Shown: positions 26,082-32,076 of the stretch, one piece after another
Layout of the letters: the number at the start of each line of letters is the position of its first letter
Position numbering within the stretch: the first letter of the stretch is position 1
Origin: Alphaproteobacteria bacterium
GTDB taxonomy: Bacteria > Pseudomonadota > Alphaproteobacteria > Thalassobaculales > Thalassobaculaceae
DNA length: 32,076 nt
Assembly (NCBI GenBank): GCA_024742605.1
Contig: JANSYC010000044.1
Span: 1-32,076 of the forward strand
Direction of reading: 5' to 3'
Notes under the pieces: generated by a model
The model's input: the letters and a program-made list of their open reading frames with translations, nothing else
What the model was told of the DNA's origin: nothing
Database searches by the model: none
Program-made: the position numbers and the translations under genes

Positions 26082-27941
26082 CTACCCGTCCATCTTCAGG
26101 GCGGCGAGGAAGGCGGATTGCGGAATTTCGACCTTGCCGAACTGCCGCATCTTCTTTTTGCCTTCCTTCTGCTTGTCCAGCAGCTTGCGCTTCCGAGACA
26201 CGTCGCCGCCGTAACATTTGGCGGTCACGTCCTTGCGCATGGCGCTCACCGTCTCGCGCGCGATCACCTTGCCGCCGATGGCGGCCTGGATGGCGATCTT
26301 GAACAGCTGACGCGGGATCAGATCCTTCAGGCGCGCGCACATGGCGCGGCCGCGCGGCTCCGCCTGGCCCCGGTGGACGATCATCGACAGCGCGTCGACC
26401 GGCTCCGCATTCACCAGCACCGACAGTTTGACCAGATCGCTCTCGGCATAGCCATCCATCTGGTAGTCGAAGCTGGCATAGCCCCGGCTGATCGATTTCA
26501 GGCGGTCGTAGAAATCGAACACCACCTCGTTCAGCGGCAGACGATAGACCACCATGGCCCGGGCGCCGGCATAGGTCAGCTCGATCTGCTCGCCCCGTCG
26601 GTCGGTGCAGAGGGTCAGGATCTGGCCGAGGTAATCGTCCGGCACGAAGATCGTCGCCTTGATCCACGGCTCCTCGATGAAATCGATCTTCATGACGTCC
26701 GGCATGTCCGCCGGATTGTGCAGCTCGACCAGGTCGCCATTGGTCTGGTGGATCTTGTAGATCACGCTGGGCGCGGTGGTGATCAGGTCCAGATTGAATT
26801 CCCGCTCCAGCCGCTCCTGGATGATTTCCAGATGCAGCAGACCCAGGAACCCGCAGCGGAATCCGAAGCCGAGCGCCGCCGAGGTCTCCGCCTCGAACGA
26901 AAAGCTGGCATCGTTCAGCCGCAGCTTCTCGAGACTGTCGCGCAGATCCTCGAAATCGGCCGCATCGATCGGGAACAGTCCGCAGAACACCACCGGAATG
27001 CTCGGCTTGAAACCGGGCAGCGCCTTGGCGGTCTGCCGTTTCTCCTCGGTCAGCGTGTCGCCAACATTGGTGTCGGCGACGGTCTTGATGGCGGCGTTGA
27101 TGAAGCCGATCTCGCCCGGACCCAGACTTTCGACCTCAAGCCCCTTCGGCGTCAGGACGCCCACACGCTCGACCTGATGGACGGCGTTGGCGGCCATCAT
27201 CCGGATCTTCTGGCCCTTTTTCAGACGTCCGTCGATCACCCGCACCAGACAGGTCACGCCCAGATAGGGATCGTACCAGCTGTCCACCAGCATCGCCTTC
27301 AGCGGGGCCGCAGCGTCGCCTTCCTTGGGCGGCGGCAGGCGGGTGACGATGGCCTCCAGAAGTTCTTCCATGCCAATGCCGGATTTGGCGGAAATCTCCA
27401 CCGCCCCGTCGGCTTCCAGCCCGATGACATCCTCGATCTGCTGCTTGACCCGGTCCGGCTCGGCGGCCGGCAGGTCGATCTTGTTCAGCACCGGAATGAT
27501 CTCGTGATCGACCTCGATCGCCTGGTAGACGTTGGCCAGGGTCTGGGCCTCGACCCCCTGGGCCGCGTCGACCACCAGCAGCGAGCCCTCGCAGGCCGCC
27601 AGCGACCGGCTGACCTCATAGGCGAAGTCCACGTGGCCGGGCGTGTCCATCAGGTTGAGGGTATAGCGCTTGCCGTCCTTGGCGTCGTAGATCAGCCGGA
27701 CCGTCTGCGCCTTGATGGTGATGCCGCGTTCCCGCTCGATATCCATCGAGTCGAGCACCTGCTCCTTCATCTCGCGATTGGTCAGCCCGCCACACATCTG
27801 GATCAGTCGGTCGGCCAGGGTCGACTTGCCGTGATCGATATGGGCGATGATCGCGAAGTTGCGGATCCGCGACCGAATTTCGAGATCGGCTTCGGAGACG
27901 GCGGGAGCGGTTGTGGCGGCGGGCGCTGGCATCTGGTTCAT
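26082..27941 (-). CDS. lepA: Elongation factor 4 (LepA)
   Basis: This translational GTPase acts on the ribosome, where it affects back-translocation or initiation/assembly. The chosen form has 619 residues. The G domain shows AHIDHGKST (33-41), the switch I region [18 protein letters not shown], and NKIDLP. Domains II, III and V follow, with [14 protein letters not shown], and the LepA-specific C-terminal domain ends [25 protein letters not shown] and [15 protein letters not shown], all diagnostic. The ATG at 27941 gives a 27-residue lead before [10 protein letters not shown]; an ATG at 27932 and others up to 28025 are in frame, and none has a clear ribosome site, so the N-terminus is uncertain. 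GTPase residues appear intact. Confidence 0.97.
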
Positions 27942-28036
27942 GGCGCGCAAAATAGGGCGAAACGGGGCTTTCGGCAATGCGGCAATCTTGCGATGGAGCG
28001 TGCCCATTGATGAACGCTGCGCCACGCGCTGTAGAG

Positions 28037-28363
28037 ATGGGGACTAAGAGGTTTGCGTCGGTTGTCGGAGATGGATGCAGCGTTGAGGCAGCTCAATCCC
28101 CGACACCTGGAGTGCCCGGCACTCTCGGGACCCTTGGAGCGCGCGGTACCCTAGGGACACGTGGGACCCTTGGAACCCGGGGTACCCGAGCAACTCGTTG
28201 TGTGCCGGGGACCCGCGGTACATTTTCGCCCTGTGACATGGGATATCGCTCCGATTATTCGGATCGCCGGGGGGGCTGCCAGGCCCTGGACTCGCACGAG
28301 CCGGGATCACGGCTACCCCGTCGCTTCGATCCTCATGGGCTCACGGGTCGAACTATTCGGTAA
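28037..28363 (+). CDS. Possible short protein with collagen-like Gly-Thr-Leu/Arg repeat
   Basis: In the 411-base gap between lepA and the next gene, this frame encodes 108 residues (an ATG at 27977 would give 128). At 28109-28225 it reads 13 consecutive triplets: [39 protein letters not shown]. The first two bases of the Gly codons are nearly constant while the third varies over all four bases, which points to selection on this reading frame. There is no good ribosome site and no recognisable domain on either side, so it may be a remnant of a longer gene. The 3' end overlaps the convergent lipoprotein gene by 11 bases. Confidence 0.25.
28109..28225. repeat. Degenerate 9-bp tandem repeat (GGN ACN CTN/CGN)
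   Basis: The stretch consists of about 13 imperfect 9-base units, densest from 28118 to 28189, with pattern GGN-ACC-CTN or GGN-ACC-CGN. Because differences between units fall mostly on the third base of the plus-strand Gly-Thr-Leu/Arg frame, it looks like a protein-coding repeat and not a simple satellite. Several units create GGTACC or GGGACC palindromes. Confidence 0.6.
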
Positions 28364-28799
28364 TCTGCGGAATGATTACCGAATCCTTTGGCGCGGCGCG
28401 AAGGCCATAATCCGCGAAGCCTTGGGCCAAAGTTTGCGCAGCCGAACCGGTCGCAAAGAACTTCCCCAGCCCTACGGACACAATCGTGTTGTCACCGGTA
28501 TTCAGCGCGAAACTGCCGAAGGTCGACAGGGCATCCTGTCCTGCCCCGTTGATAGAGGAGCTTATGATCGTGAGATTTCCGTTTTCGTCACGCGTGGCAG
28601 CCGGGACGATCGCGACGTTGTCGCTGTTGTATCCAAGGCTCAGTTCGGCATTCTGCTGCGGGCCGGACCCCGCGATCTTCAGCCCGACGGAATCCGACTG
28701 CCCGAACACAAGATTCGACGAATCAAGATTTCCGCAGGCTGAAATCGAAACGGCCAACGGCATCAGAACCGCAATCGCTTTAATCGTGTCTTTTCTCAC
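28353..28799 (-). CDS. Small lipoprotein of unknown function (GY-x-S-x-N-x-AI-x-P family)
   Basis: This exported lipoprotein of 148 residues has the signal RKDTIKAIAVLMPLAVSISAC, with lipobox ISAC, so the mature protein begins at Cys22. The mature chain has NLVFGQSDSVGLKI, AELSLGYNSDNVAIVP, DALSTFGSF and VGLGKFFATGSAAQTLAQG, a set of phrases that looks like a conserved but uncharacterised family. The GTG at 28799 was chosen because GGGGGAA lies about 6 bases ahead; an ATG at 28814 directly abuts the preceding stop. It is the last gene of an amidase-lipoprotein-lipoprotein unit. LGYNSDNVAIVP matches IGYHSTNMAILP in the upstream lipoprotein, so the two are sisters or share a binding feature. 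No function can be given. Confidence 0.75.
   Translation of the reverse strand: MRKDTIKAIAVLMPLAVSISACGNLDSSNLVFGQSDSVGLKIAGSGPQQNAELSLGYNSDNVAIVPAATRDENGNLTIISSSINGAGQDALSTFGSFALNTGDNTIVSVGLGKFFATGSAAQTLAQGFADYGLRAAPKDSVIIPQITE
28355..28384. terminator. Perfect 10-bp hairpin at the 3' end of the lipoprotein gene
   Basis: ATTCGGTAAT (28355-28364) pairs perfectly with ATTACCGAAT (28375-28384) around a 10-base loop. It covers the last codons and first stop base of the minus-strand lipoprotein gene and the stop codon of the convergent short frame. There is no T-run, so it may end or stabilise transcripts, or bind a protein. Confidence 0.5.
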
Positions 28800-28814
28800 C
28801 ACATCTTCCCCCAT

Positions 28815-29183
28815 TTATTCCGACGCCAAGGTCTTGGCGCCTGGTCCAACGTCACAAAGCCGGCTGTCACCAGCCAGCAGGTCCGTCATGCGGTCCGGGT
28901 CCGCATTCCTGCCGATCCAGACCACCACCCGACAGTCATCAATCGGCAGAATCGCCATATTGGTGCTGTGGTATCCGATCACTGCCGCTCCATTGAGAGT
29001 GGTCACGCCAAACCCGTCGATCTTGACGATCTGGGGCTGTGTTGCCGGCCGGGTCTCGAGGTTCACCAATCCCCACGCGGTCCGGCTCGACACCGTTCCG
29101 TCTGCCTGGTGAACCGTGACCCGCGTGCAGGCTGTGCCGAGGAGCAGACTGCCGAGGAGCATCGGCCAGAGAAAGCCGCGCAA
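28815..29183 (-). CDS. Small lipoprotein of unknown function, sister of the downstream one
   Basis: This is a probable exported lipoprotein of 122 residues. The signal MRGFLWPMLLGSLLLGTAC has lipobox LGTAC, making Cys19 the lipidated residue. The mature chain (TRVTVHQADGTVSSRTAWGLVNLE, a GFGVTT strand, AAVIGYHSTNMAILPIDDCRVVVWI) has an uncharacterised family look and shares the GY-S-N-AI-P phrase with the next gene. The start is uncertain: TTG at 29183 supplies a basic n-region but its AGGAG is 12 bases away, while the ATG at 29162 has no ribosome site. The amidase gene ends about 50 bases upstream, and the stop TAA abuts the next possible ATG, so the three genes are very probably one transcript. 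Confidence 0.68.
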   Translation of the reverse strand: MRGFLWPMLLGSLLLGTACTRVTVHQADGTVSSRTAWGLVNLETRPATQPQIVKIDGFGVTTLNGAAVIGYHSTNMAILPIDDCRVVVWIGRNADPDRMTDLLAGDSRLCDVGPGAKTLASE

Positions 29184-29236
29184 GAGGACGGTCGGCTCCT
29201 GTCGGCACCGGGTTGGGCAGGGGCGCGACACCGGCG

Positions 29237-30058
29237 CTAGCCACTTCGCGCGAGGTAGTTGCCATGGACCCAACCGGTCAGGTCGGGCGCGCCGGTCGCG
29301 TCCAGAACCTCCACATAGCACCAGACACCTTCGCGCCCTTCCAGGCGGACCTTGGTGCCCTTCGCCAGGGCTTCGGGGCGCACCTTCTCGAAATCCACAC
29401 CGGGACCGGATCGGATGTTGAGATTGGCCGCGCAAACGAACAGCGGTTCCGGCTCGTCCGCACGACCCAACAGGCGCGATTTGAACTGAGCCAGCGGAAA
29501 GGCCGGGCCGGGATCCCGTTTGCGGTCGGGGGCGATGTCGTCGTGTCCGAGGACATCAATCAGACCGTAGTGCGCAACGATCGCGGTTGCGGCCTCCAGC
29601 GCGGCGGCGATCTGAACCTCGGTATACTCCTGCCAGGCCGATGGACCCGCGTCGTACTGGTGGGTGGCGATGGCAACCTGATCATCGGGATAGACGGTGC
29701 CGAACCAGGCGGTCCAGCGACCCGGCTCACCGGACAGTTCGCCCGCATTGTCCAGCTCGATCCCGATCGAATGACGGTTGAGCCCCCGCAGCTCATGCAA
29801 ACGGCTGCGCCCGGCATGCCATGCCACCCGATCGAACGGTACAAGCTGCACGATCGAACCGTCGCGGCCGATGACGAGATGCGCGGATGCCTTGGCGGAC
29901 GGGTTCTTGAGATGCTCGATCGAGCTGCGTGCGCTCGATCCCGCAGTGAAATGCATGATCAGGTAGGTGGGATCGAGCTTGCCGCTCTGATTCGGGCTGC
30001 GTTCATATGGAACGGCTTGCCCATCCTTCCCAACCAGGCGGTGGTTCTTGATTTTCAT
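29237..30058 (-). CDS. N-acetylmuramoyl-L-alanine amidase (Amidase_2) with C-terminal SH3 domain
   Basis: This zinc amidase of 273 residues is predicted to cleave the bond between MurNAc and L-Ala in peptidoglycan or its fragments. Zn ligands of the AmpD/T7-lysozyme fold are His36 (IMHFTAGSS), His172 (GHDDIAPDRKRDPG) and Asp182; Glu101 in GIELDN is the likely catalytic aid. Residues 205-270 form a bacterial SH3 domain (LNIRSGPG, GWVHGNYL), which usually binds cell wall. No signal peptide is present, so it is cytoplasmic like AmpD, or released by lysis or a secretion system. GGAAGG lies 5 bases before the ATG at 30058; an ATG at 30085 is less well supported. Two lipoprotein genes follow on the same strand. 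Confidence 0.9.
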   Translation of the reverse strand: MKIKNHRLVGKDGQAVPYERSPNQSGKLDPTYLIMHFTAGSSARSSIEHLKNPSAKASAHLVIGRDGSIVQLVPFDRVAWHAGRSRLHELRGLNRHSIGIELDNAGELSGEPGRWTAWFGTVYPDDQVAIATHQYDAGPSAWQEYTEVQIAAALEAATAIVAHYGLIDVLGHDDIAPDRKRDPGPAFPLAQFKSRLLGRADEPEPLFVCAANLNIRSGPGVDFEKVRPEALAKGTKVRLEGREGVWCYVEVLDATGAPDLTGWVHGNYLARSG

Positions 30059-30103
30059 GATCGCCTTCCCCCAAAGATCAATCATTCAACGCCTGAGGAA
30101 GCT

Positions 30104-30109
30104 AGTATA
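30104..30109 (-). promoter_or_regulatory. Candidate -10 element of the amidase unit
   Basis: On the minus strand TATACT occurs 46 bases before the amidase ATG within a markedly AT-rich stretch (30101-30170). No convincing -35 lies at the usual spacing, so the promoter may rely on an activator or another sigma factor. Confidence 0.3.
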
Positions 30110-30169
30110 AATACAATCCTAGGTAAATGTTTTTATGAGAATGAAATTTAAGGATGTAAAATAAAGATG

Positions 30170-30946
30170 TTATTCTTCGTAGATCATCTTCTTCGTCACC
30201 CCGCCGTCGACCGTGATGTTCTGGCCGGTCACGAACCCGGCTCCGTCGCCCAGCAGATAGAGCACGGCCGATGCGATGTCCTCCGGCGTCCCGACGCGCC
30301 CCACCGGGTGCTGGCGCCTGTCGGCTTCGCTGTGCTTGACGGCGAAACGGGCTGCAGGTTTCCGGTGGGCACCGGTCTCGATCCAGCCGGGGGAGATGCA
30401 GTTGACCCGGATCGGGAGCCGCTCGGCATGATCGTCGCGGACGCCCAACTAGGCTGCCAGGGCATGGGTGACGGCGAGGACGGCCCCTTTGGAGGCGCTG
30501 TAGGCCTCGGTGTCCGGCTCGCTCATCATGGCACGGGTGGAGGCGATGTTGACGATGGCGCCCCGACCGGTGGCGCGGAGGAACTCGGCTCCATGTTTGG
30601 CGCCCGCCAGGATGCTCAGCACATTTACGTCGAGAACCCGGCGGACCGCGTCGAGATCCAGCTCCTCGACCGGACCGTTGGCGTTTATGCCCGCATTGTT
30701 GACGATCGCGTCCAGGCGGCCGAACTGCTCGAAGATATGGCCGATGCAGCCGGCGATGACCTCTTCCGAGCCCGCATCGCCTTCGAGTGCCAGCAGGTCC
30801 CGGCCCAGTTCCGCCGCCAGATCCTCGAGCGCCTCGGCGTCCAGATCGAGCGCCGCCACGGTCCAGCCGTCGCGGGCAAGTGCGCGCGAGATCGCCCGGC
30901 CGATGCCTTGCGCTCCGGCAGTGACCAGGACAACCCGCGCGGCCAT
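30170..30946 (-). pseudogene. Short-chain dehydrogenase/reductase split by an in-frame TAG
   Basis: Together the two halves encode a classical SDR of 258 residues in one frame. The first 165 residues hold the cofactor loop (TAGAQGIG), NNAG, Ser136 in IVNIAST and Tyr149/Lys153 in YSASK. Codon 166 is TAG (30449-30451), after which the same frame resumes with [26 protein letters not shown] and ends [20 protein letters not shown]. The family usually has ALA-x-ELG at this place, so a single GAG-to-TAG change explains the stop. The truncated product would lack the substrate-binding half. It starts 5 bases after the argG stop, so it is translated from the argG transcript. Recent inactivation, a sequencing error or readthrough are possible. 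Confidence 0.85.
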
Positions 30947-30951
30947 CTCTC

Positions 30952-32076
30952 TTAGCCCTGGAAGATCTTCTTCAGGCGCAGGCGCAGGGCGTTCAGCTTG
31001 ATGAACCCTGCCGCGTCCGCGTGGTCGTAGTCGGCGACCGCGCTTTCCTCGAAGGTCACCCAGTCGGCGGAATACAGGCTCTTTTCCGCCTTGCGGCCGA
31101 CCACGGTGGTGTTGCCCTTGTAGAGCTTGAGCCGGACCACGCCGGTCACATCCTGCTGACTGTAGTCGATCGCCGCCTGCAGCATCAGACGCTCAGGTGC
31201 GAACCAGAAGCCGTTGTAGATCAGCTTGGCGTAGCGCGGCATCAGTTCGTCCTTGAGGTGCCCCATCTCGCGGTCCAGCGTGACGCTCTCCACCGCCCGG
31301 TGGGCGACATGCAGGATGGTGCCGCCGGGGGTCTCGTAGAGGCCGCGGTTCTTCATGCCGACGAAGCGGTTCTCGACCAGATCCAAGCGTCCGATGCCGT
31401 TGTCGTGGCCGAGCTGGTTCAGCTTGGTCAGCAGGGTCGCGGGGCTGAGCGCCTCACCGTCGATCGACACCGCGTCGCCTCTTTCGAACCCGATCTCCAC
31501 ATAGGTCGGCTTGTCCGGCGCATCCTCAGGGGAAATGGTCCGGCCCCAGATATAATCCGCACCCTCGACCCAGGGGTCCTCGAGCACCTTGCCCTCGGAG
31601 GAGGCGTGCAGCAGGTTGGCGTCGACCGAGAACGGCGCTTCGCCGCGCTTGTCCTTCGAGATCGGGATCTGCCGGGCCTCGGCGTAGTCCAGCAGGGCGG
31701 TGCGGGAGGTCAGGTCCCATTCGCGCCAGGGTGCGATGATCTTGATGTCGGGCTTGAGTGCGTAATAGCTCAGCTCGAACCGGACCTGGTCATTGCCCTT
31801 GCCGGTGGCGCCGTGGGAGACCGCATCGGCGCCGGTCTCGTTGGCGATCTCGATCTGGCGCTTGGAGATCAGCGGCCGGGCGATCGAGGTGCCCAGCAGG
31901 TAGGTGCCCTCGTACAATGTGTTGGCGCGGAACATCGGGTAGACGAAATCGCGCACGAACTCCTCGCGGAGATCCTCGATATAGATCTCCTCGATGCCCA
32001 TCAGCTTGGCCTTCTCCCGGGCCGGCTCGATATCCTCGCCCTGACCCAGATCGGCGGTGAAGGTCACGACCTCGCA
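30952..32076 (-). CDS. argG: Argininosuccinate synthase ArgG (5' end outside window)
   Basis: This enzyme joins citrulline and aspartate with ATP in arginine synthesis in the cytoplasm. The visible 374 residues run from [15 protein letters not shown] to the C-terminus; the N-terminal 20-30 residues with the ATP loop lie outside the window. Diagnostic blocks are [60 protein letters not shown] and the final helix. Everything seen agrees with the family, and no key residue appears altered. The split SDR gene follows directly on the same strand. Confidence 0.97.

Follow-up and report, generated by a model that had tools for sequence, protein, structure and literature searches.

Does the SDR gene that lies next to argG in the window (the whole 32,076-nucleotide stretch of DNA analysed) still encode an enzyme, when a single in-frame TAG stands within its reading frame? 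The gene occupies the minus strand and comprises 258 codons plus a stop, codon 166 being the internal TAG (Table 1); the initial annotation, which gave no strand, had described it in just these terms, as an SDR gene with one in-frame amber at codon 166. When the TAG was read as a sense codon the frame extended to 340 codons, with the TAG as its sole stop. Because of this read-through length, and because it matched its six nearest orthologues, all free of stops, at 57–84% identity, the frame is by these comparisons more than a product of chance. The six orthologues come from one genome of the same genus (G001) and from five of the same family (G026, G030, G034, G022 and G014).

Table 1. Features of the interrupted SDR locus, in window coordinates.
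Feature	Position	Strand	Basis
SDR-family oxidoreductase gene, 258 codons + stop, broken at codon 166	30170..30946	-	PF13561, NF005559, six orthologues
In-frame amber TAG, codon 166 (read 30451-30449)	30449..30451	-	Ser in 6/6 nearest orthologues
Pre-stop part, 165 codons: glycine-rich loop (residues 11-16), NNAG 83, Ser136, Tyr149, Lys153	30452..30946	-	Motif positions
Post-stop part, 92 codons + normal stop: PGWIETG 186, VDGG 246; intact, constrained	30170..30448	-	Motifs, dN/dS 0.186
argG (argininosuccinate synthase), 5' end off contig, upstream neighbour of SDR	30952..32076	-	NF001770, 546.6 bits vs cut-off 334

A search with the translated sequence, in which an X was placed at the stop, gave a match to the Pfam family PF13561 (adh_short_C2) of 200.9 bits against a cut-off of 27, as expected of a classical SDR. 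Classical SDRs carry an active-site Ser, a YxxxK motif, a Gly-rich loop and an NNAG motif, and all four were found here (e.g., GAQGIG at residue 11 and NNAG at residue 83), with Ser136, Tyr149 and Lys153 invariant across 15 sequences compared. The Gly-rich loop reads TAGAQGIG, Ala replacing the first Gly, and does so likewise in G001, G026, G030 and G034. Scores against curated families, including that for NF001770 in Table 1, were taken from the best 25 of 227 families; among these the sequence passed the cut-off of NF005559, a broad subfamily named glucose 1-dehydrogenase (218.7 bits, cut-off 215). We rejected the SDR equivalog NF004324 (PRK05717) as a narrower identity, as the score of 235.7 bits was below its curated cut-off of 384. 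A close paralogue that could act as a backup was likewise rejected, the next best match from the same genome being 38% identical (C127; among the matches listed).

Our comparisons bore out the link to argG made in the initial annotation: the SDR gene starts five bases after the argG stop (TAA-GAGAG-ATG), and argG lies upstream of the SDR gene, adjoining or near it, in all six relatives, at ~4 to 21 bases in G001, G026, G030 and G034, and at roughly 0.8–0.9 kb in G022 and G014. On the other side of the gene, a lepA-matching frame starts ~25 bases after the SDR stop in G001 (the lepA region used in this comparison being window 26082-28025); here ~2.1 kb with an amidase gene separates the two. 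This SDR-lepA block (window ~28020-30169) consists of an Amidase_2 gene (29237-30085, minus strand), which also has an SH3_3 match just below the cut-off, and small ORFs lacking a Pfam match. A DNA search of G001, the draft sister genome, with window 28000-30200 found nothing at E-values up to 0.001, and the best-scoring match to the amidase elsewhere (36 relatives) was of 43% identity over residues 28-116. The SDR gene of G001 is itself split across two contig ends (L149 5755-5820 and L150 2974-3039, on contigs C610 and C914); its match to our gene runs to residue 237, where the first contig ends, and the remainder lies on the second. Compared over 66 bases, the two ends show one difference, and the split is perhaps a strain-variation break in an assembly of ~950 contigs. 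The SDR gene is also far more diverged from its G001 counterpart than are its neighbours, with a dS of 0.52 (argG 0.31, lepA 0.25) and a protein identity of 84% before and 86% after the contig break (argG 97.6%, the lepA frame 97.5%).

What probably stood at codon 166 before the stop can be gathered from the relatives. The counterpart is Ser in all six nearest orthologues, encoded by TCT in G001 and by TCG in the other five, and at 80 wider loci (named records) we found Ser in 71, Thr in six, Gly in two and a gap in one. None of these 86 sequences (0/6 near, 0/80 wider) contained a stop within its matched stretch, as would be expected if the stop had recently inactivated the gene, and not as expected of a UAG kept for readthrough. 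In 40 SDR genes sampled from the same genome (40 of 66 matches, mostly higher-scoring, with the interrupted gene left out), TCG outnumbers every other Ser codon (182/503), and from the TCG of the relatives a single C-to-A change suffices to produce TAG. The claim that the family has Glu at this position did not hold for the subfamily to which the gene belongs; Glu was found in a remoter SDR of solved structure, 1vl8, and a further solved SDR, 4ni5, has Asp (two alignments, each with a gap just beyond the cut). The expectation that sequencing reads from an intact gene would show GAG was accordingly wrong, as the nearest intact relatives carry a serine codon and the wider ones mostly encode Ser. 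The case also illustrates that the residue to be expected at an internal stop should be sought in the nearest orthologues (here Ser) and not across the superfamily at large (Glu). CTAG, the tetranucleotide that contains the amber codon, occurs nine times in the window, compared with ~104 expected from base composition alone.

We then consider the age of the stop. Against G001 the dN/dS of the whole gene was 0.178, with similar values for the pre-stop (0.171) and post-stop (0.186) parts, and pairs of stop-free orthologues gave comparable figures (0.170 for G026-G030 and 0.166 for G026-G034). With G026, G030 and G034 as the outgroup and the stop codon left out, changes at codon positions 1 and 2 numbered 21/410 on this branch versus 19/408 on the sister branch, and third-position changes 38/154 versus 23/139. 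We also estimated, by a simple likelihood, what fraction of the branch had passed unconstrained; this used parsimony counts, took third positions as neutral and relied on a sister copy pieced together across two contigs. The estimate had its best value at 0 and a 95% upper bound of 0.165. As the two parts have similar dN/dS, we take the stop to be young: purifying selection is similar on both, with constraint absent for at most ~17% of the branch, and the part beyond the stop shows the little or no decay expected of a recent nonsense pseudogene. An older decay was not supported, given the likeness of dN/dS before and after the stop together with the branch test. Some counts hint at a mild relaxation on this branch, below significance: at columns invariant in the six relatives this copy departs at 9/119 (eight without the stop) and the sister copy at 3/113 (Fisher p 0.22 without the stop), and positions 1 and 2 of the post-stop part have nine changes here versus four on the sister branch (p 0.49). 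A cluster of errors at the stop was also considered and rejected, since the branch shows no unusual concentration of changes near it; the densest 12 bases hold five changes at alignment column 476 (the stop being column 510), a density that was reached in 474/2000 shuffles.

The TAG could be a wrong consensus base in a draft assembly, the gene being intact in the organism. This would be in keeping with a genome in 187 contigs, of which the window is one whole contig with the codon 1625 bases from its end, with two gene parts that both look constrained, and with an inferred change of just one transversion; however, this gene was the only one of 66 SDR-family matches (E-values up to 0.001) to have an internal stop, and none was seen among the listed ABC-transporter matches of this genome (107 in total), so that such errors would seem to be infrequent in the sampled genes. 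Short-read consensus sequences seldom contain substitution errors and genuine nonsense mutations are common; we regard a base error as unlikely. In the sister genome one of 59 SDR-family matches has an internal stop, a TAA in a different gene.

A second possibility is readthrough of the stop, or a regulatory role for it in expression, with full-length SDR still being made at some level, and a dN/dS under 1 in bacterial genes with in-frame stops has indeed been taken as a sign of frequent readthrough (PMC7918605). The post-stop part of our gene is under constraint like that of the pre-stop part, but a young stop would lead one to expect the same, and the stop is found in none of the six near or 80 wider relatives compared. 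Using the Rfam tRNA model we identified 43 tRNA genes in the genome, none of them within the window, and read the anticodons of all 43 with ARAGORN; none was CUA, so the suppressor tRNA for which the initial annotation had proposed a search (or a pyrrolysine tRNA) was absent from those detected. Ala-UGC and Arg-UCU tRNAs, which most bacteria have, were absent from the list, which is therefore not quite complete and could have missed a suppressor. The 40 sampled SDR genes end with TGA in 25 cases, TAG in nine and TAA in six; with TAG ending 9/40 genes and no CUA anticodon among the 43 tRNAs detected, we rejected a reassignment of TAG in this organism, and nothing that we found points to a novel form of decoding. 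We consider readthrough or regulation by the stop to be very improbable, and would give as little credence to the particular form in which the amber is tolerated, near-cognate tRNAs decoding it often enough to sustain a little full-length SDR; the stop might then act as a damper on expression while selection continues beyond it. It is also conceivable that the gene is split, with translation restarting at codon 167, a TTG and hence a possible start directly adjoining the stop, and the two fragments assembling. On visual inspection the preceding 40 bases lack a suitably spaced Shine-Dalgarno-like sequence, TTG is an unremarkable Leu codon (76/759 in the 40 sampled genes), and the cut would divide the one SDR domain, separating the Tyr/Lys pair from the PG motif; a split gene is in our view barely credible.

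The explanation that we favor, and that we hold to be probable, is that the interrupted SDR gene is a recent nonsense pseudogene. In this scenario the SDR gene beside argG, presumably functional until very recently, would have suffered a nonsense mutation when one of its serine codons changed from TCG to TAG through a single C-to-A substitution; we infer that TCG was the direct ancestor codon and that the TAG base is real in the organism. Translation would now stop after 165 residues, leaving a fragment that would keep the cofactor-binding N-terminal half and the Ser, Tyr and Lys residues and would lose the PG motif (PGWIETG 186) and all beyond it, including VDGG 246. The lost part is the one that we take to carry the cofactor/substrate loop and the last strands of the SDR fold. 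As the PG motif and the C-terminal part are lost, the truncated product is probably inactive. The initial annotation had named recent loss of function, sequencing error and readthrough as the options; this was the right list, and the evidence ranks loss first, base error second and readthrough last. The interrupted SDR gene may thus serve as a clean example of a gene just after its inactivation, or of one wrongly shown as inactivated, although it is of little wider consequence.

In known systems, losses of this type have been surveyed in Salmonella, where a single inactivating mutation was present in 346 of 378 pseudogenes, with a premature stop in 131 of these 346 (PMC2916853); by analogy, a loss through a single nonsense mutation would be of a common kind. 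Like young single-nonsense pseudogenes such as those of Salmonella (PMC2916853), the SDR gene has one probably inactivating point mutation, a frame shortened by more than 20% (165 of 258 codons kept) and a conserved neighbour alongside, whereas, unlike that survey, ours concerns a draft genome with one congener, G001, for comparison. For in-frame stops in bacteria, the large-scale part of one study builds its case for readthrough on stops that orthologues from at least two species have in common, and the study also finds that in-frame stops of this kind tend to persist only briefly (PMC7918605). The SDR gene resembles the cases described there in having an internal TAG with a dN/dS of 0.17–0.19 around it, and differs from the large-scale set in that its stop occurs in no orthologue examined, and so does not pass the filter of the same place in two or more species (PMC7918605). 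Also close to it are the SDR genes of the six relatives from the same bacterial family (G001, G026, G030, G034, G022 and G014): unlike ours these have no internal stop in the matched stretch, the G001 copy lying over two contigs, but they are orthologous to it and share with it an argG gene that adjoins or lies near the SDR gene.
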